Source: Sphingomonas carotinifaciens (lineage in GTDB: Bacteria; Pseudomonadota; Alphaproteobacteria; Sphingomonadales; Sphingomonadaceae). Taken from it: a DNA stretch of 64,000 nucleotides. The translations under genes were made by a program, and so were the position numbers. Positions 8,326 to 35,667 of this stretch are shown in pieces. Below the pieces are notes generated by a model that made no database searches, was not told where the DNA came from, and worked only from the letters and a program-made list of their open reading frames with translations. Numbering within the stretch: the stretch's first letter is position 1; the number at the start of each line of letters is the position of its first letter. The DNA is taken from the NCBI RefSeq assembly GCF_009789535.1, contig NZ_WSUT01000007.1, forward strand, positions 1 to 64,000, given 5' to 3'.

Positions 8326-8778
8326 TCAGAACATCGGATGCGGGTTGGCGGCCTTGGCCGGGATCGGCTGGATCACGTCCCAATGCTCAACGATCTTGCC
8401 GTCCTTGAGCCGGTAGATATCGGCCACTGCCCCGCCCGCATTGTTCGGGTCGGTACGCCCGTGCAGGTGGATCACCGCGAGGTCGCCATCGACGATGATC
8501 CGCTTCACGTCGAACCGCGCGCCGGGCATCGCAAATTTGGGCGCGAGCGCCGCGACCGCAGCTTCCCGCCCGTCGGGCAGGCCGGGATTGTGCTGGATAT
8601 AGTCCGGCACCACGAACTTCGCGAACGCCCCCGCGACATCGCGATGACCGTAGAATTGTTCGGCAAAGGCCGTCACGATCGCGCGATTGCGCTCGGTTTC
8701 CGATGCGCGCGGACGCGCCGGCACCGCAGCGGCGATCAGCGCTGTCGCAACGATGGCGGAGGTGACGAACCTACTCAT
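8326..8778 (-). CDS. SnoaL-like / nuclear transport factor 2-fold protein, exported
   Basis: The 150-residue protein has a signal peptide (MSRFVTSAIVATALIAAAVPARP) and a SnoaL-type cone-shaped domain: FAEQFYGHRD, YIQHNPGLPDG, IHLHGRTD and ending KIVEHWDVIQPIPA. Family members are small-ligand cyclases, isomerases or binding proteins; the EHWDV and IQHNP motifs are common to the family. It starts within the ATGA overlap with the GH3 gene, so it is the last gene of the LLM-FMN reductase-GH3 operon. The precise role is unknown; a periplasmic step on a glycoside or aglycone is possible. Confidence 0.8.
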   Translation of the reverse strand: MSRFVTSAIVATALIAAAVPARPRASETERNRAIVTAFAEQFYGHRDVAGAFAKFVVPDYIQHNPGLPDGREAAVAALAPKFAMPGARFDVKRIIVDGDLAVIHLHGRTDPNNAGGAVADIYRLKDGKIVEHWDVIQPIPAKAANPHPMF

Positions 8779-11120
8779 AAGGCGATCTCCATCGAAAACA
8801 GCAGCCGGTCGCTCGCCGGACCGACCGAAACACGGGCCTTCGGGTCGGGACGCCGCCAGCGATCGCCCTGCCAGATGCGGAACATGCGTGGTTCGGGCAC
8901 GACACGAACCACGGCGGTTTCCCCGGCGGCCAAACGGACCTTCGCAAAACCGACCAGCGCGAATTCGGGATCGTGGCGATAGAGTTGCACGACCTCGCTG
9001 GCCGCCCGCGTCCCGACGTTGCGCAGGGTGAGCAGCACGTCTGCGCCATCGGCAACCGCATCGATCCATTCGAACCGGCCATAGCCCTGCCCCGCGCCGA
9101 AGGCGTAGAGCGGCATGCATTCGCGCGAGACCAGTCCGCGATAGCCGACCAGCACGTCGTCGTCGTACCGCAGGTCGCCCGCCGCATCGGGCTGCAACGC
9201 CAATGCCGGATAGTCGCCTTCGCTGCGTGCGAGCGTTACGGGCAACCGTCCGCCCGGTTCGGTGTCGCCCGCCAGGACGGCCGCCAGCGCCGGGCCATAT
9301 CCCTCGCCCGGATACCAGGCGGAGAGCAGCGCCGATGCGCGTCCGCCCCAGCTTGCGTCGAAGGCATGGCCGATATTGGCGACGATCGCGACATGCGGAT
9401 TGGCGGCACAGACCGCCTCGATCAGCGCGACCTGATCCGCCGCCAGCGCGGTATCGGCGCGGTCCTTACTCTCGACGCTCGAATCGGAGGTTTCGCCGAC
9501 CATCAGGATCACCGCGTCGGCGGATTTTGCTGCATCGACCGCACGTGCGAGCATCGCCGCCGCGCTGTCGGGAGTACGGATGCCGTACCACAGACCATGC
9601 ACCCGCGCGCCGTCATAGGTGAACTCGACCTCGACCAGCACCCGCTGGCCAGCAACCAGTTGCACCTCAACACTGTCCGCATCGCCGCGCTTCAGCGACC
9701 CCATGACGTCGGACGCCGCCATGCGTTCGGCATGGTCGTGGACGACGCGGCCATCGACCCGCATCCTCACCGCGCCGGTCGCGCCAACATAGAAACAATG
9801 CGCACCGTCCGCCGCAGCGGTGAACCAGCCGCTGGCACGCACGCCGGCAGGCCGATCGAACACCCCTTCGTCATGGACGCCGACGAACCACACCAGCGAA
9901 TTGGTGTCGCGGACCTCGGTAAAGATCGGATCGCCGGTCAGGTCGGTGTCGGCGAAATAGTCGACGGTCATGCCGCGATCGGTGCCACCTAGCGGCGCGA
10001 CCGGCATCGATGGCAGGCGCGGTTGCGGATCGACACCCGGTTCATAGACGATTGTCGCATCGCCATAACGCGCACGAATCGCATCGAGCGGGCGCGCCGC
10101 ATCGGGCGACAGCGCGATCTTGGCAAAGGTGCCACCCTGATAGCAGGGCGAGGCGGCATTGGGGCCGATCACCGCGATGCGGGCATGTCGTCCCGGTACC
10201 AGCGGTAACAAATCGCCTTCGTTGCGCAGCAGGACCATGCCGGCCGCCGCCGCCTCGACCAGCAGGGCGTCGGCATCCTCGATCGGCGGCGTCTTGGCAC
10301 CCGACCAGCGCCGGGCTGCTTTTGCCACGCGATCGGCGGCGTCCGCGAGCCGGTCGGCGGATACTTCGCCACGTTCGACCGCGCCGACCGCCTTCGCACC
10401 GACGAACCGGGCCGGCCCCGGCATTTCTAAGTCGAGGCCGCCGTTCAGGCTGCCCGCGGTCGAATGGGTGCCGAACCAGTCGCTGATGAACGGGCCATCA
10501 AAACCCCATTCCTGCTTCACGATTGTCGAGATATGATCGTGTTCGGCGCACCAGCTACCGTTGACCCGGTTATAGGCGGTCAGCATCGCTCCCGCCCCTG
10601 CTGCCGCGCACAGTTCGAAAGGTAACAGGTAGATTTCGCGCAGCGCGCGTTCGCCGACCATCGCATTCATCCGGTCGCGATCGGTTTCGCTGTCGTTGCA
10701 GACCAGATGCTTCACGCAGGCACCGGTCCCGGTCGATTGCAGTCCGCGCGTCCAGGCCGCACCGGCCAAACCGGTCAGCAGCGGGTCTTCGGAAAAATAT
10801 TCGAACGCGCGTCCGGCGAGCGGGCTGCGCGCCAGATTGACGTTGGGGGCGAGCACCATGTCGACGCCGCAACGCACCGCCTCCCCGCCGACCAACGCCC
10901 CGACCCGCTCGATCAGCGACAGGTCGAAGCTTGCCCCCAGTGCGGTGGCGCAAGGCGACAACCGGGCGACATCGCGTTCGTCCACGCGCCCGCTGGCGAT
11001 ACCCATCGGTCCGTCGCTCAGATGCAGCGAAGGAATGTCGGCGGCGGGAATGGCGACGGTGCGCCACATCGATGCACCGGCGGTCAAGCTGGCCTGTTCA
11101 GCAATGGCCAGCGCGGTCAC
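8775..11120 (-). CDS. GH3 family beta-glucosidase with PA14 insert
   Basis: The 781-residue protein shows the GH3 order: N-terminal TIM-barrel domain with KHLVCNDSETDR and the nucleophile motif FISDWFG, then the alpha/beta sandwich (AAAGMVLLRNEGDLLPL, IAVIGPNA). A PA14-like insert (about residues 400-545, MTVDYFADTDLTG...WYGIRTP) and a fibronectin-type III end (VLLTLRNVGTRAASEVVQLY) follow. It would hydrolyse beta-glucosides, removing O-linked sugars. I chose the GTG at 11120, which overlaps the FMN reductase stop (GTGA), because homology begins there; the upstream in-frame Met lies inside the reductase gene. No signal peptide is evident. Confidence 0.9.
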   Translation of the reverse strand: MTALAIAEQASLTAGASMWRTVAIPAADIPSLHLSDGPMGIASGRVDERDVARLSPCATALGASFDLSLIERVGALVGGEAVRCGVDMVLAPNVNLARSPLAGRAFEYFSEDPLLTGLAGAAWTRGLQSTGTGACVKHLVCNDSETDRDRMNAMVGERALREIYLLPFELCAAAGAGAMLTAYNRVNGSWCAEHDHISTIVKQEWGFDGPFISDWFGTHSTAGSLNGGLDLEMPGPARFVGAKAVGAVERGEVSADRLADAADRVAKAARRWSGAKTPPIEDADALLVEAAAAGMVLLRNEGDLLPLVPGRHARIAVIGPNAASPCYQGGTFAKIALSPDAARPLDAIRARYGDATIVYEPGVDPQPRLPSMPVAPLGGTDRGMTVDYFADTDLTGDPIFTEVRDTNSLVWFVGVHDEGVFDRPAGVRASGWFTAAADGAHCFYVGATGAVRMRVDGRVVHDHAERMAASDVMGSLKRGDADSVEVQLVAGQRVLVEVEFTYDGARVHGLWYGIRTPDSAAAMLARAVDAAKSADAVILMVGETSDSSVESKDRADTALAADQVALIEAVCAANPHVAIVANIGHAFDASWGGRASALLSAWYPGEGYGPALAAVLAGDTEPGGRLPVTLARSEGDYPALALQPDAAGDLRYDDDVLVGYRGLVSRECMPLYAFGAGQGYGRFEWIDAVADGADVLLTLRNVGTRAASEVVQLYRHDPEFALVGFAKVRLAAGETAVVRVVPEPRMFRIWQGDRWRRPDPKARVSVGPASDRLLFSMEIAL

Positions 11121-11683
11121 GCGATCGGCTCCAGACGGAATGCCATGATTTGACGCGCCATGACGGCAATCTGTCCGGCGATGGCGGTATCGGCCAGTTC
11201 GCCTTCGCTGCCGAACGGCTTTTGCGCGATCGAATTGATCGCGATGCCCGCCGGCGTCGGCCAGCCCCGCATCGCATGGACGATGCCGCGTAGCGCAGCC
11301 AGCGTGACGCCGCCCGCCTGCCATCCCGCCGCCGATACGATCAGCCCGACCGGCATCCCGTCGAAATAGACGCGTTCGTCGCTGCGCAGATCCTCCAATA
11401 GGTCGATCGCGTTCTTGACCACACCCGACACGCCACCGTGATAACCGGGCGTGCCGATCACCAACCCGTCGGCCTCACGCAGCGCGGCGACGAATGCCGC
11501 CTGCTCAGAAGTTCGCTCGGGCCGTTCGGGATTGAAGTGCGGCAATGCGGCGAGTGCCGGGCCGTCGAACATCGTCGTCCGCGCGCCCAGCCCTTCGCAA
11601 TCGGTCAGCACCGCCCGCACGAGCATTTCGCTCGACGATCGCGGGCGGAAGGTGCCACCGATTCCAACGATGTGTCGTGCCAT
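11117..11683 (-). CDS. NAD(P)H-dependent FMN reductase
   Basis: The 188-residue protein has the flavodoxin-like NADPH-FMN reductase fold. It begins MARHIVGIGGTFRPRSSS (phosphate-binding loop), then DGLVIGTPGYHGGVSGVVKNAIDLL, the conserved flavin-binding block, and GLIVSAAGWQAGGVTL. It supplies reduced FMN to a partner monooxygenase, here most likely the luciferase-like protein encoded 4 bases upstream. The start at 11683 follows the monooxygenase stop directly; an earlier in-frame Met lies inside that gene. Confidence 0.88.
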   Translation of the reverse strand: MARHIVGIGGTFRPRSSSEMLVRAVLTDCEGLGARTTMFDGPALAALPHFNPERPERTSEQAAFVAALREADGLVIGTPGYHGGVSGVVKNAIDLLEDLRSDERVYFDGMPVGLIVSAAGWQAGGVTLAALRGIVHAMRGWPTPAGIAINSIAQKPFGSEGELADTAIAGQIAVMARQIMAFRLEPIA

Positions 11684-11687
11684 CGCC

Positions 11688-12791
11688 TCAAGCCTTCCGG
11701 AACGCGGGCATGACCTTTTCCGACAGCAGCCGGAGCGTCTGGTCGCCCAGCCGCAGCCGTTCATCGGTCAACGGCCCGGTGGTCGTGCCGCACAGGATGT
11801 TGCCGATGCCCAGTTCCTCGTAGGGCTTGAGATGTTCAACCACCGTTTCGGGCGAGCCGTACAGGCACCATGTCCCGATCCAGTCTTCGGTCAGCGCGTT
11901 GGGCGTCCGGTCGGTCTTCTTGTTGGCGTCGGTGGATTCGGCGCGGGCATTGAATGCCGCCTCGCGTTCGATCGCGTCCTGATACGCGCGCAGGATCGCC
12001 ATCATCTCGTCGCGGGCCTGTTCGTCGCTGTCGGCGACATGGACGAGCTGATAGGTGTGCGTCGTCCAGTCGAGCGCGCGGGCGATCTTGTCGGCGCTAT
12101 GCCCCGCCTCCTCCAGCATCGTGCGATAGATGCCGAAGAATTTGGCAACATGGGTCATCGGTTCGGTCCCGCCGATCTTGGGCGGGGTGAAAGCCGGGAT
12201 GAAGGCCGGCCAAGCATTTTCGGCGGCACGTCGTGCGCTCGATTCCTTCATCGCCACCGGCATCAGCCGGGCATGCCCCTCGCTGTACGGGGCGGGCGCG
12301 ATGCGTTGCAGGACGCGGCCCTGATGCGGACCATTGTCGATCTCGACCGCCGGGTCGTTCATCGTCTTGGCCCAGAGCTGCTCGGCGAGCGCCAAGTTCT
12401 TTTCCGAGATCGCGCCGGCATCGCGATAGTCTACGCCGAAGCCGATCATCTCCTCGGGCGTGGTACCCGAACCGACGCCGACCAGCAGCTTGCCGTCGGT
12501 CAACTGGTCGAGGATGTTGATCCGTTCGACGAAGCGTACCGGGTGATGCAGCGGCACCGACGTCACCGAAAAGCCGAAATGCATGTGTGGGAACTTGGCC
12601 GCCAAATACGATGCGAACATGTAACTGTCGCTGGCGATCGGCATATATCCGTTGAAATGATGGTCCGGCAGGAACAAGGCATCGAAGCCCAGCGCCGCAG
12701 CGCGTTCGGCATGGTTGGTCAGGTTGTGGATGAGCGCGCGGTCCTGCTCCGGCGCCATCGAACGTGCATTGAGGAACACCGAGAAACGCAT
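11688..12791 (-). CDS. Luciferase-like (LLM class) flavin-dependent monooxygenase
   Basis: The 367-residue protein has the bacterial luciferase-like TIM-barrel pattern: MRFSVFLNARS, GFDALFLPDHHFNGYMP, HPVRFVERINILDQLTDGK and LLVGVGSGTTPEEMIGFG. The C-terminus has WCLYGSPETVVEHLKPYEELGI. Such enzymes use reduced FMN and O2 to hydroxylate or oxidatively cleave substrates, so pairing with the adjacent FMN reductase fits a two-component system. It is the first gene of its operon, with an operator palindrome about 75-90 bases upstream shared with the divergent TetR gene. Hydroxylating the aglycone to a catechol before ring cleavage would be a logical role (inference). Confidence 0.88.
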   Translation of the reverse strand: MRFSVFLNARSMAPEQDRALIHNLTNHAERAAALGFDALFLPDHHFNGYMPIASDSYMFASYLAAKFPHMHFGFSVTSVPLHHPVRFVERINILDQLTDGKLLVGVGSGTTPEEMIGFGVDYRDAGAISEKNLALAEQLWAKTMNDPAVEIDNGPHQGRVLQRIAPAPYSEGHARLMPVAMKESSARRAAENAWPAFIPAFTPPKIGGTEPMTHVAKFFGIYRTMLEEAGHSADKIARALDWTTHTYQLVHVADSDEQARDEMMAILRAYQDAIEREAAFNARAESTDANKKTDRTPNALTEDWIGTWCLYGSPETVVEHLKPYEELGIGNILCGTTTGPLTDERLRLGDQTLRLLSEKVMPAFRKA

Positions 12792-30820: not shown

Positions 30821-31432
30821 TCACAGCAGATCGATGCCGTACTTTTCGCGCAGCCCTTGCGCGTTCATCTCGCCCTCGACGACCCAACGACGGGCGTACG
30901 CAACGACGTCGGCAAGCTGCAACAGCCGGGACGCGCCGGAGTCCAGTCGTACAACGCGGTTGACGCCGCGGAACCGACCGTCGTCGTTCCGCGCCCGCTC
31001 CATCTCGGCATCGAAGTCGGGATGATCGTTATGCTGATTGACGTCGGTGATGACATCGACGTTGCCGACGCTGTCACGCCCAAGGACGGTCCGAAAACGC
31101 TTCATGCCAATCTTCACCGTCTCGACGACCGCCTGCGCGTACACCAAGGGGGGAGGGCCCGGCCGACCCTGGAAGTGCTGGTTGATCAGCACGACCCGGT
31201 CGAGATCGGCACCTGCCCGAAGCCGATCGAGCAGGCCTTGGAGATAGCCATTCGCCATCTTCACGGCGTGGACCTCGTTCGCGTCGGGGGGCAACAGGTC
31301 GCTGAACGCCTTGTCCAAACGTCCGGCTTCACGGGCAAGCACGAACAATGCGCCGAGCTGAAACGGACCGCTGCCGGCCGTTCCTGACTCGTCGATGAAG
31401 CACAATACCTTCTTGTTGAGGCCTTTGGTCAC
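30821..31432 (-). CDS. DUF3800 protein
   Basis: The 203-residue protein has the DUF3800 hallmark CFIDESGTAGSGPFQLGALFV at its N-terminus. An Asp-rich, RNase H-like pattern follows (VDVITDVNQH, then LLQLADVVAYARRW near the C-terminus). DUF3800 proteins are common on mobile elements and near defence genes; their activity is not settled. Translation starts at a GTG immediately after the stop of the winged-helix gene (TGA-GTG without gap), so the two are co-expressed. Confidence 0.85.
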   Translation of the reverse strand: MTKGLNKKVLCFIDESGTAGSGPFQLGALFVLAREAGRLDKAFSDLLPPDANEVHAVKMANGYLQGLLDRLRAGADLDRVVLINQHFQGRPGPPPLVYAQAVVETVKIGMKRFRTVLGRDSVGNVDVITDVNQHNDHPDFDAEMERARNDDGRFRGVNRVVRLDSGASRLLQLADVVAYARRWVVEGEMNAQGLREKYGIDLL

Positions 31433-31960
31433 TCAGGCCTCCGCTTCGGCCGCTGTCGGCGCGGGTCGGCGGCGTCGCATCCCGGGCCGGGAAACGGCCT
31501 GTCGCTTGGCGCGTGCTTCCTGCGCGGCATCGCTGAAATCGGGCTCGATCTCCGCCAGCTTGTCGACCAGGCCCTGCAGATCATACTCGTTGGAGATCTT
31601 GCCGCGATGCGACGCACGGCGCTCGATCCGACGCACGAACCCGGCCTCTTCAAGCTCGGCGATGTAGCGCTGGACCTGCCGCTCGCTGAGATTCAGCCGC
31701 AAGGCGAGGTCGGCTTTCTTGGGAAACGGCTTGCGCCCGGCATCCCACCAAAAGTCGGCCAGCTGGATCAATACGGCGAGCTGGGTCGGGCTAAGGCCGA
31801 GGCGCCGCTGGGCACGCAGCAGCAGCGAGGGCAGCATACAGAAGCCGAGCGCGATCACCTTGGCGCCCCATTTATTGGCGGCAGCGCCCGACTTGCGGGG
31901 TGCCTTCGGCTGGCAATCCGCGACGGGCAGATCATTTTCTTCTTCGCTCTTGTCACTCAT
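31433..31960 (-). CDS. Winged helix-turn-helix DNA-binding protein (possible replication or regulatory protein)
   Basis: The 175-residue protein has a charged N-terminus (MSDKSEEENDLPVADCQP), then KWGAKVIALGFCMLPSLLL and LGLSPTQLAVLIQLADFWW. A classical recognition segment follows (KKADLALRLNLSERQVQRYIAELEEAGFVRRIERR) of the HTH_36/replication-initiator-like winged helix. GGAGACGACG precedes the start at 31960. Its promoter region has repeated ACCGGAC motifs and two GTCTC/GAGAC hairpins. It may regulate its own operon or take part in replication; I cannot decide. Confidence 0.75.
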   Translation of the reverse strand: MSDKSEEENDLPVADCQPKAPRKSGAAANKWGAKVIALGFCMLPSLLLRAQRRLGLSPTQLAVLIQLADFWWDAGRKPFPKKADLALRLNLSERQVQRYIAELEEAGFVRRIERRASHRGKISNEYDLQGLVDKLAEIEPDFSDAAQEARAKRQAVSRPGMRRRRPAPTAAEAEA

Positions 31961-32017
31961 TCGTCGTCTCCGTAGGCTGCAAATGTGCCTTCGACGCATC
32001 GGTGACAAGGCGTAGCG

Positions 32018-32160
32018 ACCGGACACTTTTGTCTCGTCGGCAAGAGACGCAGGTGTCTCCTCGGACGAGACGCTGATGTCCGCTCTTAATAAGGACGTAG
32101 GTAACCGGACAAACCGTAAGCCGATTAAGCGAGATTCAGGGCTACCGGACGAAAATGTCC
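32018..32160. promoter_or_regulatory. ACCGGAC direct repeats and twin GTCTC/GAGAC hairpins upstream of the winged-helix gene
   Basis: ACCGGAC occurs at 32018-32024, 32104-32110 and 32144-32150. The first and third are followed by TTTTGTC or AAAATGTCC, making GGAC-n6-GTCC type dyads. Between them are two hairpins with identical arms, GTCTC...GAGAC at 32031-32048 and 32055-32071. The region is the promoter side of the winged-helix gene (start 31960) and the end side of the HEPN gene (32220). It is a candidate operator or short iteron set. Confidence 0.5.
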
Positions 32161-32219
32161 TGTCGGTACCGGGTGATACGCCGAATCAGCATGCCGCGGG
32201 TCAACCGCGATCGGCCGAT

Positions 32220-32993
32220 CTATGGCGACGGCACATCCGCCGCGTAACTATGTTCATCGATGACGCCCTGCTGCAATCCCATCGCAAGGCGGAACGCCGC
32301 GTCGGCCGTCGCGCAAAAGGCGTAGGCGTCGAACGGGAAGCGGGGCAGGGCATGGCCGAGCCGATCGTCCGAGCGCACGGCGCGTTCGAGTTCGTCGCGC
32401 ACGGCGTTGAGAATGTCCTGTTCACATGCGGCCAAGCGGTCGAGTTGCGCGCGTAGCAGGTCACGCAGCTGACGCTGGACGCCGATCTTGTGCGCTGCCC
32501 GGGTGGAAAGCACGTTCATCTGCTCGCGCACCCGCTCGTCACCCCGCCAGAAGGTGAAGAGCACCGCCTCGCGGACCAGAGGGCCATCGGATAGATGCTC
32601 GCCGCGCCCGTAGTGCGCGATGTCACTGTTGCGCAGCGTCTTGATCGTACGGTGCGCGGCCCGCAGTTCCGGCGTCAGATAGTCGTCAGCAAGGATGCCT
32701 TTCCGCTGTTTCGACGACGTGAACGTCGCCCGTGCGTAGAGTACCACCGCATGCGAGAAGAGCGCCCCGGTAACGGTCACCTCGCGTTCGCTTAAGGCCT
32801 CCTCACGATTTTCTCGCGCCGCCTGGTGCCGGTCGATCTCGGCGAGGCACCGCTCCGCCTCCAGCAGGTCCTGACGGATGGTGCCGGCGGCTGCCGCTTT
32901 GTCGATCAGGCCAACCAGACGCTGGTGGCGGCCCGTCGGGCGCAGCCAGGCGGCGAGCGCGGACAGATCGGTGGTCTGGCAGACTTCGGTCAC
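32220..32993 (-). CDS. HEPN-motif helical protein, third gene of the candidate defence operon
   Basis: The 257-residue, mainly helical protein has LRNSDIAHYGRG at residues 120-131, an Rx5H motif (Arg121-Asn122...His127) with Asn after Arg as in HEPN ribonucleases. The rest has long amphipathic helices without other recognisable domains. Its start overlaps the stop of the nuclease gene by ATGA. HEPN proteins are frequent RNA-cutting effectors or toxins of anti-phage systems. The motif is suggestive but short, so the fold should be modelled before it is called a nuclease. Confidence 0.65.
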   Translation of the reverse strand: MTEVCQTTDLSALAAWLRPTGRHQRLVGLIDKAAAAGTIRQDLLEAERCLAEIDRHQAARENREEALSEREVTVTGALFSHAVVLYARATFTSSKQRKGILADDYLTPELRAAHRTIKTLRNSDIAHYGRGEHLSDGPLVREAVLFTFWRGDERVREQMNVLSTRAAHKIGVQRQLRDLLRAQLDRLAACEQDILNAVRDELERAVRSDDRLGHALPRFPFDAYAFCATADAAFRLAMGLQQGVIDEHSYAADVPSP

Positions 32994-33856
32994 GGGAAGA
33001 GGTCCGCCAGGGGGGCGAAGACCGCGCCGGTCTCTGCGGCGTGGCGCGCCTTGGCGGCGATCACGTGATCGATCCCGATCCCGCGGTCGAGCGCCTCATA
33101 GAGATCGCGTCCTTCGAGTGCGATCGTCCGCTTGCCGCGGCCAAAGGCTTGGAGGCCTTCCTTGGTGAAGCCGCCGAAACTGACGAACAGCCCGCGCGCC
33201 CATGCCGCCTTCTGACCGATCTTGCCTTCGAAGGTGTGGAGCTCGGCTTGGCTGATGCGACGGTTCAACCATTTGGCTTCGACGAGGTAGATCTCGCCGC
33301 CATGCTCGAAGCTGCCGTCGATCTGTTCGCCTGCAAGCCGGAACGGTTCGCGCGGATTGAGCCGGAATGCATCGAACATCTCCGTGAGGAAACGCTCGAA
33401 CGCAAAGCCACGCTGGTGCGGTTCGGTGTCCCGGATGCTGACAAGCCGATCGCGCAGGCGGGCAAAGTCGATCGCGTCGAGGATCGGTGCGGCGACGACA
33501 TTGACTGGAGCAGGGAGCGCTGACCCTTGCAGTCGCGCGATGAGCGCCGCGATCTGGCCGGCGGCGCGCGGCATCGGATCGGCCGTGTCGGCGCTGCGCA
33601 ATGCCTCTCGGTGCTCCCAGAGGACCCGAAGCGTACGTGCGGCGGTGCCATCGTCCACCTGCCCGAGAAAGCAGCGCAATCGCTTGCCCTTCGAGATGCC
33701 GTCAACGGCATATTGCGGTGCATCGATGTCGATATCGAGTTCGCGAACGAAGAAGTCGCTGAATGTGCGATTGGAAAAGTCGAGAATGTACCCCCGCTCG
33801 CCGCCCCGAAAAATTTCGTCGACGAGACTGAGGTCGATAGAGCGAAGACTGCTCAT
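32990..33856 (-). CDS. PD-(D/E)xK restriction endonuclease (Mrr-like) with AbiJ-type N-terminal module
   Basis: The 288-residue protein has an N-terminal module (GYILDFSNRTFSDFFVREL...ISKGKRLRCFL) like that of AbiJ-type and other defence proteins. A C-terminal Mrr-type nuclease domain follows: Glu154 in RGFAFERFL, Asp180 in EQIDGSFE, and Glu193-x-Lys195 in IYLVEAKWL, the complete D-x12-ExK site. The helix SQAELHTFEGKIGQKAAWARGLFVS is typical of the family. The start at 33856 lies 2 bases after the Shedu-like stop. It probably cuts DNA, perhaps after sensing by the neighbouring proteins. Confidence 0.85.
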   Translation of the reverse strand: MSSLRSIDLSLVDEIFRGGERGYILDFSNRTFSDFFVRELDIDIDAPQYAVDGISKGKRLRCFLGQVDDGTAARTLRVLWEHREALRSADTADPMPRAAGQIAALIARLQGSALPAPVNVVAAPILDAIDFARLRDRLVSIRDTEPHQRGFAFERFLTEMFDAFRLNPREPFRLAGEQIDGSFEHGGEIYLVEAKWLNRRISQAELHTFEGKIGQKAAWARGLFVSFGGFTKEGLQAFGRGKRTIALEGRDLYEALDRGIGIDHVIAAKARHAAETGAVFAPLADLFP

Positions 33857-33858
33857 CG

Positions 33859-34752
33859 TCACTTCGCCGGCTTGGAAGGGGCCTTCTCGTCGACCGCCTC
33901 GAGCATACGCAGAATGGCCGGGTGAACATCGCCAGCTTCGTCCTCGGTCGGCTTCGTCGCCCACTTCTCGTTGAACCGCAGCAGGTGATTGTTGCGCCAC
34001 GCGTCCATCTGATAGCCCTCGCTCACGAGCTCGGCCTCGATCGGCGCCGGCACGGTCAGATGTTCGGGCAGAACATAGGAGAAGAGGAGGATCGGCAATG
34101 CGTCCAAGCGCTTGATCGCGTAGCCGGTCGAGCGCGTCGAGAGGAGGCATTTCTTGCTGGCCCGGCCAGCGCGGTAGCTGCGTAGCAGTGAGTCGTACGT
34201 GAGGATCTTGATCTTGTTGTCTTCCTCCAAGCCGGCGATCCGATCGCGTTGCGCCTGGTTGAAATCCTTCGTGCCCGAGCGGCCGATAATGAGGACACGG
34301 CGAAGGTCAATCCGGTTCGATGCCATGCCGGGCGGGACGAGGATTGGCCGTAGCCGCTCGCGCAGCTCGGCCTGATGCTGCACCCAATAGTCCTGCCAGA
34401 CCGCCGTCTGCGCAACCGCCTCGTTGAAGGCGCTCGAATAGCCGACATGTTTGCTGCTGGTGGTGAAGAGCGGCTTGTCCGCGCGCTCGATCTCCACGAG
34501 GACGAGGATCCAGCGATCGGATGATTTCGTGAGATAGGCAAAGTCGGCGGTGCGTACGCCGATCGGAAACTTCGCGATGATGCAGTTCATGTGCAGGCGG
34601 TGGTTCAGCAGCCACGCGCTGGTGTCGAGGAACTCGGTATGCTCCTCGAGGAAGGCTTGAATGTCGTTCTCGTCCTTGTCCTCGTCGGACAACAAGGTCT
34701 CGAAAGCGGTGGCAAGCGCCTCATCGGGTTGTTGCCGCATGGCCGGCGTCAT
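33859..34752 (-). CDS. Shedu-like (DUF4263) immune protein
   Basis: The 297-residue protein fits the Shedu SduA/DUF4263 pattern. It has the N-terminal 'IQAFLEEHTEFL' segment and then the nuclease-like core with Asp70 (TADFAYL) and Glu87 (LVLVEIERADKPLFT). QTAVWQDYW and a strand-rich end (RRVLIIGRSG, IKILTYDSLLRSYR) follow. The usual Lys of ExK is Glu89 here, so catalysis is uncertain. ATG at 34740 is an alternative start. It begins a tight operon with the nuclease and HEPN genes. Shedu proteins act alone in described systems, so this three-gene order is of interest. Confidence 0.75.
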   Translation of the reverse strand: MTPAMRQQPDEALATAFETLLSDEDKDENDIQAFLEEHTEFLDTSAWLLNHRLHMNCIIAKFPIGVRTADFAYLTKSSDRWILVLVEIERADKPLFTTSSKHVGYSSAFNEAVAQTAVWQDYWVQHQAELRERLRPILVPPGMASNRIDLRRVLIIGRSGTKDFNQAQRDRIAGLEEDNKIKILTYDSLLRSYRAGRASKKCLLSTRSTGYAIKRLDALPILLFSYVLPEHLTVPAPIEAELVSEGYQMDAWRNNHLLRFNEKWATKPTEDEAGDVHPAILRMLEAVDEKAPSKPAK

Positions 34753-34973
34753 CCTGTTGGGGTCAAAAGATGTTTTTCGACCTTTCGCGACAGGATTTAT
34801 GACACCGACGTGCAGATCGCCACTGTCACGTCGCGGTGCGATCGCGTCCGGCGGCGCGCACGGAGCGATAAGGCCGATCGTCCGGCCCTGAAGCCGGCCT
34901 CGTCGCGGATCGCAGCGCCGACGGGAAGCCGGCGGCGTGCCCCGCAGAGCACGCCGTCGCTTCGGAACCGGGT

Positions 34974-35081
34974 GTTGGAAACCAAGAGTGAGCTTGGCGC
35001 GAACGCCTTTAGCCGGGTGGCCTGGACATACGCGTCCGCCACCCGGTTGTATCGAACCGGCTCTCACTCTTCGGGGTTTCC
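34974..35081. ncRNA. Large nested hairpin element upstream of the defence operon
   Basis: An outer stem pairs TGGAAACC with GGTTTCCA and AAGAGTGAG with CTCACTCTT. Inside are a short hairpin GGCG-CGAA-CGCC and a very stable one, CCGGGTGGC (35013) with GCCACCCGG (35038), itself containing GGAC...GTCC. The whole is about 105 bases, three-way-junction-like, 220-330 bases upstream of the Shedu-like start. It could be a structured RNA or a DNA element such as a recombination or transfer site; its strand is unknown because it is near-symmetric. Confidence 0.5.
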
Positions 35082-35195
35082 ACGCCCCGACCCGCGTCTC
35101 CGCGAGTGTCTTCCTTGTACCGACAGCAGGGTCATCCGCGCAAGCAGCCATCCCGCCGCATCATCCATCCGCGGCGGGAGCCGCACCGTCGTCGC

Positions 35196-35336
35196 TCACT
35201 CCTCCCAAAGTGGCTTGCGCTTGCGGGCTCGCTTGGGCGCGCGGGGCAGGGGAGGGGGGACGATCACCTCGATTTCGATCGCGATCATCGCCAGATCCGC
35301 GAGCCAGGCCTGGATGCGTGCGGGCTTGTCGAGCAT
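35196..35336 (-). CDS. Small 46-aa protein with strong ribosome-binding site
   Basis: Reading from the ATG at 35336 gives MLDKPARIQAWLADLAMI followed by AIEIEVIVPPPLP and a basic tail RAPKRARKRKPLWEE. A GGAGG site lies 5 bases before the start, better than for most genes here. The C-terminal basic patch suggests nucleic-acid or membrane contact. I recognise no family. Confidence 0.6.
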   Translation of the reverse strand: MLDKPARIQAWLADLAMIAIEIEVIVPPPLPRAPKRARKRKPLWEE

Positions 35337-35667
35337 GGGAACCTCCGTCTGTCCGTTTGAAGACGGGCACGGCCGGACGGTCGGGCGGCGTCGGGGTCAC
35401 AGGACCGCGAAGCGGCCGCGTCAGCGGGGCGTGGGGGTGCCGATTTTCGCGGGACTCGAAGCGCAGCGCCGAGCCCGGGAAAATTGGGGGCACCGCGCAT
35501 CCTTGACGCCGGCGTCGACCGACCGTCACGCTGGATAGACGTCGACGACAGATTTCAACGTTTACGCTGAGGGTGAGACAGCCGCCCGTACCGGGAAGCT
35601 GCCGTACCGCGAGCGTCGCTCGCTTGCGTCCGAAGCGCCCCGGCGGGTGAGCGCCGGGGCAGGCGGG
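35337..35667. other. Intergenic region, 331 bases
   Basis: No gene is seen. A GC hairpin, GCCCCGGCG-GGTGAG-CGCCGGGGC at 35636-35659, lies 9 bases after the DUF3768 stop and may terminate it, although there is no T-run. At 35405-35415 CCGCGAAGCGG followed by TTTTCGCGGG recalls the leader repeats at 40781 and 45672 but is degenerate. Confidence 0.4.

Follow-up and report, generated by a model that had tools for sequence, protein, structure and literature searches.

Introduction

The motif of HEPN proteins spans the range Rx4-6H, and in the type VII toxin-antitoxin systems of the HEPN/MNT kind it takes the form Rx4HxY, with an AMPylated tyrosine and an MNT partner gene. In one type I Shedu, DNA ends are sensed and nicks are made nearby (PMC12904381), and the lysine mutant K557A of VcSduA has lost its anti-phage activity (PMC12137116). 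AbiJ heads 1-5 were described by Anantharaman et al. 2013; according to that paper (PMC3710099), head 2 comprises about 100 mostly helical residues, is fused to AbiJ HEPN domains as well as to Mrr nucleases, and is often misfiled as DUF3644. The same source proposes that AbiJ heads bind viral components and restrain the attached enzyme, and argues that DNA immunity is coupled in this way to suicide RNases of the HEPN type.

Proteins of these three kinds are encoded in one row of genes on a contig of Sphingomonas carotinifaciens. Among the papers listed for Shedu/SduA/DUF4263, Mrr, HEPN, AbiE/Hachiman/Mrr islands and AbiJ-NTD2, none describes this trio or its HEPN family in its title or the opening of its abstract. 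The trio puts parts of known kinds into a new arrangement.

Organization of the locus

The window (the whole stretch of DNA analysed, 64,000 nucleotides) covers the initial 64 kb of a contig of 201 kb. It carries genes for a MobA/VirD2-type relaxase, a CopG-like protein, a ParA/VirC1-like ATPase, an RP-C-type replication protein and SSB. We read the contig as a plasmid because of the relaxase, ParA/VirC1-like, RP-C-type and SSB genes. The three ORFs of the trio are intact and lie on the minus strand in the order Shedu, Mrr, HEPN (Table 1). The conserved motifs and the repeated gene junctions described below exclude chance ORFs. Judged from the alignment, the more likely start of the Shedu gene is that at 34740 (MRQQP...), where most aligned relatives begin.

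Table 1. Features of the trio, in window coordinates
Feature	Position	Strand	Remarks
Shedu (SduA) protein	33859..34740	-	293 aa (P0160); P0001 is the reading from 34752, 297 aa
Shedu active-site stretch Asp70...Glu87-x-Glu89 (P0001 numbering)	34486..34545	-	Lys of ExK replaced by Glu
AbiJ-type N-terminal domain + Mrr-type PD-(D/E)xK nuclease	32990..33856	-	288 aa (P0002)
N-terminal helical domain of P0002, residues about 1-115	33512..33856	-	common to Abi_C-ending proteins
Mrr catalytic motif Asp180-x12-Glu193-x-Lys195	33272..33319	-	invariant in alignment
HEPN-fold protein	32220..32993	-	257 aa (P0003); GTG start, 4-base overlap with Mrr stop
HEPN motif Arg121-x5-His127 (RNSDIAH)	32613..32633	-	Arg in 33/34, His in 34/34

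The initial annotation had described these genes as coupled by a 2-base gap and an ATGA overlap. The gap between the Shedu stop and the Mrr start is present; the 4-base overlap of the Mrr stop with the HEPN start reads GTGA, as the HEPN gene starts with GTG. Neither a promoter-like nor a terminator-like site turned up in 31900-35400; that the trio is transcribed as one unit is a presumption. The gene with the RP-C N-terminal match follows 259 bases after the trio, uncoupled, and is adjoined by a DUF3800 gene (30821-31432) that has no PADLOC match.

The Shedu protein and its ExE site

P0001 matches the Pfam model SduA_C, the DUF4263 core, with 93.4 bits (2.1e-26; cut-off 27) and the PADLOC SduA model PDLC00378 with 322.9 bits (4.9e-97, residues 5-288), which bears out its annotation as a Shedu-like protein and means that PADLOC already covers its branch. 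Beyond the SduA_C core no recognised domain was found in the protein. A search of 5.8 billion proteins yielded 34 relatives at E<=0.001, P0001 itself included, and 30 of these (one an identical protein) were aligned with the query. Glu87 and Glu89 are invariant in all 31 sequences, and Asp70 is kept in 30. P0001 lacks a complete D...ExK site: D70 and E87 are retained and the lysine, as had been noted at the outset, is replaced by Glu89. Lys61 is likewise invariant in this branch (31/31) and might take over the role of the missing one.

The substitution recurs elsewhere. Five plasmid Shedu proteins besides P0001 have Glu for Lys; in the plasmid gene table, which is incomplete, Agrobacterium, Sebaldella, Pectobacterium and E. 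coli have theirs as lone genes, and the one from Pseudomonas is a larger protein. Among 17 further SduA_C matches in genomes of the class and phylum, 12 have ExK (two of them falling below the Pfam cut-off), four have ExE and one is unreadable in the alignment. Relatives include lone genes on plasmids, but pairs with Mrr occur too. Judged by these alignments, the change from Lys to Glu is real, belongs to one Shedu branch and is independent of the trio. The suggestion that the protein acts as a sensor rather than a cutter does not follow from it, since the Glu is common to the whole branch, lone plasmid genes included. Cutting of DNA by the lysine-less protein is uncertain, and we file P0001 as an ExE-type SduA homologue rather than a proven Shedu nuclease. 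At L012:8088-9679, in a genome where the Mrr partner has no match, a Shedu gene of the P0001 type (52% identity) is preceded by a TIR-domain gene at a distance of 50 bases.

The Mrr nuclease with an AbiJ-type head

P0002 matches Pfam Mrr_cat at 7.4e-5. Among the query and 30 of its 120 listed relatives, all 31 aligned sequences match Mrr_cat and all contain D180, E193, K195 and Q215, so that the D-x12-ExK site first read from the single sequence holds across the alignment. The structural model (mean pLDDT 78) consists of a helical head (residues 1-110), a linker and a nuclease core at about 146-286; its fold matches are weak, with restriction endonucleases ranking top. The family is large, with 3517 proteins at E<=0.001 and matches in 1415 plasmid records, of which 338 span at least 80% of the query.

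The head resembles that of proteins ending in Abi_C, the HEPN domain of AbiJ, with 44% identity over 110 aa (7e-21) and 38% over 85 aa (7e-15). The C-terminal Abi_C of these head-sharing proteins scores over the Pfam cut-off in two cases and just under it in one, and their motifs are of the RNNRSFAH or RNKRSFAH type. No Pfam family, the AbiJ_NTD models included, matches the head of P0002; by its description and the shared head it may be assigned to AbiJ-NTD2, and the P0002 relative P0049 bears the name DUF3644. The label 'AbiJ-headed' is therefore apt, given the head of about 110 residues common to Abi_C proteins and the AbiJ-NTD2-Mrr fusions reported in PMC3710099, and the architecture of AbiJ head plus Mrr is already known.

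The HEPN protein

P0003 has a HEPN-like helical fold. An alignment of the query with 33 of the 36 sequences found keeps Arg121 in 33 of 34 and His127 in all 34, which upholds the annotated Rx5H motif; its spacing fits the HEPN range. No Pfam, NCBIfam or PADLOC model is assigned to P0003, and HEPN_AbiU2 matches are weak and confined to two of the 34 sequences, so this is a HEPN family without a model. The position two residues after His127 is Gly in 33 sequences and Cys in one, and never Tyr. P0003 is set apart from the HEPN/MNT type VII toxin-antitoxin pairs by this residue (34/34), and by its coupled neighbour being Mrr, not MNT.

Distribution of the three genes

In the named genome collection, neighbours were read in the best 80 of 368 confirmed Mrr loci, three of which have fewer than 1200 bases on one side. 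Shedu and HEPN partners were sought with the trio families' own alignments, by which other kinds would be missed. Shedu of this type lies directly upstream of Mrr in four of these best 80 of 368 (L070, L071, L072 and L142; Mrr identity 75-77%), overlapping Mrr by 4 bases in each and with no HEPN of this type following; this HEPN type was found beside Mrr in none of the best 80. Genes of the raw loci were called by a crude codon-usage script, which missed the Shedu gene of L071 that the HMM found. In L070 a GajA-GajB (Gabija) pair (8330-11793) follows the Shedu-Mrr pair.

Other partners are more frequent around Mrr in these 80 loci, the classes being BLAST clusters whose families were checked on representatives only. 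A gene of the AbiEii cluster lies upstream in 17 (in one as the second gene upstream, in one as a 64-aa piece), a gene of the HamA cluster downstream in 27, and both occur together in 15; a PIN-toxin cluster gene lies upstream in six, three times before Shedu-Mrr. In the 15 loci L080, L081, L087, L092, L094, L095, L097, L099, L102-L104, L106, L126, L132 and L136, the AbiJ-headed Mrr gene stands between AbiEii- and HamA-cluster (Hachiman) genes, resembling the usual bridge of an AbiE-Mrr-Hachiman island. The PIN (VapC-like) genes, upstream of Mrr or Shedu-Mrr in L069, L071, L072, L119, L142 and L148, are mostly preceded by a small gene that is AbrB-like by eye. Overlaps of 4 bases join Mrr to toxin genes of the PIN or YafQ kind as well (L069, L077, L091 and L148), and overlap alone is therefore no mark of a co-evolved pair.

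Among the 396 genomes of the order, Shedu of the P0001 type occurs in three, matches to the HEPN alignment in 18 and P0002 matches in 20; all three families meet only in the genome of the window. This Shedu type occupies four places in those genomes, with Mrr at two and HEPN at one. Within the genus, HEPN matches are present in 25 of 295 genomes, the nearest non-self relative having 65% identity. Mrr was found in two of 16 genomes then checked for it, in full in G262 and as a remnant in G547, and Shedu in none of 19; this last set has no positive control of its own, and the alignment used on it does find Shedu in L070-L072 and L142. Two pairs of entries are probably duplicates, L070 and G262:C23 being, by their equal length, one contig, and likewise L110 and G348:C1.

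A few junctions recur nonetheless. In G547 (L169) the C-terminal 58 residues of an Mrr protein (74% identity) precede the HEPN gene with a 4-base ATGA overlap; no Shedu was found there, a resolvase-like gene (by eye) lies just beyond the Mrr remnant, and HEPN persists despite the loss of Shedu and most of Mrr. Protein-database entries whose longest contigs have equal lengths comprise Shedu P0167, Mrr P0044 and HEPN P0009 (7606 bases), Shedu P0161 with the Mrr/HEPN fusion P0033 (22222 bases), and Mrr P0040 with HEPN P0004 (2880 bases). P0033 is an in-frame deletion in which Mrr, as far as about residue 180, continues as HEPN starting at residue 155. Equal lengths are circumstantial: in two further equal pairs, of 1276 and 1322 bases, the contigs could not contain the two genes complete, which shows that short contigs do agree in length by chance. 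The Mrr-HEPN junction is probably retained in these three metagenome contigs.

The trio had been put forward as fixed, which the four Shedu and zero HEPN partners in the best 80 of 368 Mrr loci contradict. As the proposal itself had named for its refutation, the three genes rarely co-occur elsewhere, a result tempered by the Mrr-HEPN junction, which does recur, though seldom. Both this junction and that of Shedu with Mrr are inherited, if rarely; the data indicate that the Mrr-HEPN linkage is rare, yet dates back at least to relatives with 65% HEPN identity.

HEPN relatives behind other defence genes

HEPN matches were found in 36 genomes besides that of the window, and wide contexts were read for 15. 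Seven of these 15 have a defence-type gene as the immediate upstream neighbour in the same orientation: OloA-OloB (Olokun) in L053 and L054, from two genera; an Argonaute-associated nuclease (Aga_Nuclease) in L172; a SEFIR/TIR protein in L056; HNH plus a mad2-like gene in L175; a TPR-GreABC-PIN protein, after a gap of 233 bases, in L068; and the Mrr remnant in L169. The remaining eight (L055, L057, L058, L067, L170, L171, L173 and L174) have no recognised defence gene directly upstream; L170 is truncated where its contig ends, transposase-like genes break up L058, and L173 holds a small gene pair that is toxin-antitoxin-like by eye only.

The HEPN gene follows oloA-oloB directly at L053:3153-7461 and L054:7402-11698, with a 4-base overlap with oloB in both; OloA and OloB were scanned in L053 and are alike by eye in L054. 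HEPN is a possible third gene of sphingomonad Olokun loci. The trio itself differs from Olokun, OloA and OloB being absent among the PADLOC matches of its three proteins. Similar small proteins (by eye) are encoded after Mrr in two loci (L076:7932-8609 and L077:7881-8555, the latter without a Pfam match) and before a HEPN relative in a third (L067:6927-7574), which hints at a shared pool of modules.

What stands out as most novel is that HEPN recurs as the final gene after systems of unrelated kinds. We offer it as a tentative idea that this HEPN is a portable RNase module, not recognised before, which in sphingomonads is placed last in the row behind various systems that attack DNA or sense, and turns each into a two-step defence. 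DNA would be attacked first, and RNA cleavage would shut the cell down if that fails; the hosts of the module would be Shedu-Mrr, Olokun, the Argonaute-associated nuclease, SEFIR/TIR and HNH systems, with the trio as one instance.

Discussion

The reading that we favour, with a probability of about 0.55, is that the trio is a plasmid-borne anti-phage or anti-mobile-element cassette in which three exchangeable effector genes are stacked in one row. Its genes are coupled and exchange partners in other genomes, and the catalytic-type residues of Mrr and HEPN are conserved; the activities of all three proteins are what we infer. By analogy with studied Shedu proteins, the compact Shedu protein would bind and attack foreign linear DNA. 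The AbiJ-headed Mrr protein may be a second, self-restrained DNase, whose head would sense infection and free the nuclease along the lines of the 2013 proposal, and HEPN, from its fold and motif, would cleave cellular or phage RNA as a last-resort shut-down. Such modules would act in layers, each able to work without the others.

The tight coupling of the three genes could also reflect one obligate three-part system, in which the lysine-less Shedu protein would sense DNA ends without cutting them and would activate both Mrr as DNase and HEPN as RNase. Glu89 in 31 of 31 aligned sequences would suit such a sensor, and four further sequences have linked parts (the 7606-, 22222- and 2880-base contigs and the decayed G547 copy). 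However, an obligate complex is disfavoured by the persistence of Shedu-Mrr pairs without this HEPN and of HEPN without the others; Mrr mostly occurs without either, ExE Shedu proteins stand as lone genes on plasmids of four genera in the incomplete gene table, and the invariant Lys61 could replace the missing lysine, which makes this a distinctly improbable explanation. The persistence of HEPN without Shedu and Mrr also disfavours a HEPN toxin held in check only by these neighbours.

The retained Mrr-HEPN junction hints at some joint function and counts against the stacked cassette, as do the eight of 15 HEPN contexts in which the gene directly upstream is not a recognised defence gene and the missing lysine of the Shedu protein, whose nuclease activity is doubtful. 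With its ATGA kept in G547, and with the Shedu-Mrr overlap in L070, L071, L072 and L142, the Mrr-HEPN junction would agree with two units lying side by side, one being a pair that co-evolved (Shedu-Mrr or Mrr-HEPN) and the other a neighbour unrelated to it; but Mrr makes the same 4-base overlaps with PIN and YafQ toxin genes, and we consider this arrangement unlikely, if less so than the obligate system. Least probable to us is that the trio serves plasmid maintenance or acts against competitor plasmids rather than phages. The relaxase, ParA-like, RP-C-type replication and SSB genes on the same contig and the addiction-type toxin genes adjoining Mrr homologues are what such a device would lead one to expect, whereas phage defence is what a number of the recognised relatives and partners are listed under, and the trio has no small antitoxin-like partner.

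Compared with the described systems, the Shedu protein of the trio shares with Shedu the SduA_C core, membership in PDLC00378 and the Asp and first Glu of the PD-(D/E)xK site, but differs in its compact form without a recognised sensor domain, in having ExE rather than ExK and in the two further genes of its row. P0002 is like the AbiJ-NTD2-Mrr fusions, as portrayed in PMC3710099, in its helical head of about 110 aa, also found on Abi_C proteins, and its Mrr nuclease; it differs in matching no Pfam AbiJ_NTD model, the likeness resting on description and the shared head. P0003 agrees with HEPN toxins (the HEPN/MNT type, AbiU2 and other Abi families) in its HEPN-like fold, Rx5H motif and place at the end of defence-type operons, but no MNT partner was seen in the row, no Tyr stands two residues after the His and no model is assigned to it. 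Olokun (OloAB) is touched through the HEPN relatives that overlap oloB in two genera.

For the ExE branch of Shedu, the question arises whether its members cut DNA by means of a lysine placed elsewhere or bind DNA as sensors. The trio suggests that defence cassettes may grow through portable effector genes added with 4-base overlaps. If HEPN is a general back-up module, Shedu, Olokun and Argonaute-associated nucleases would be linked by one RNA-level fail-safe.
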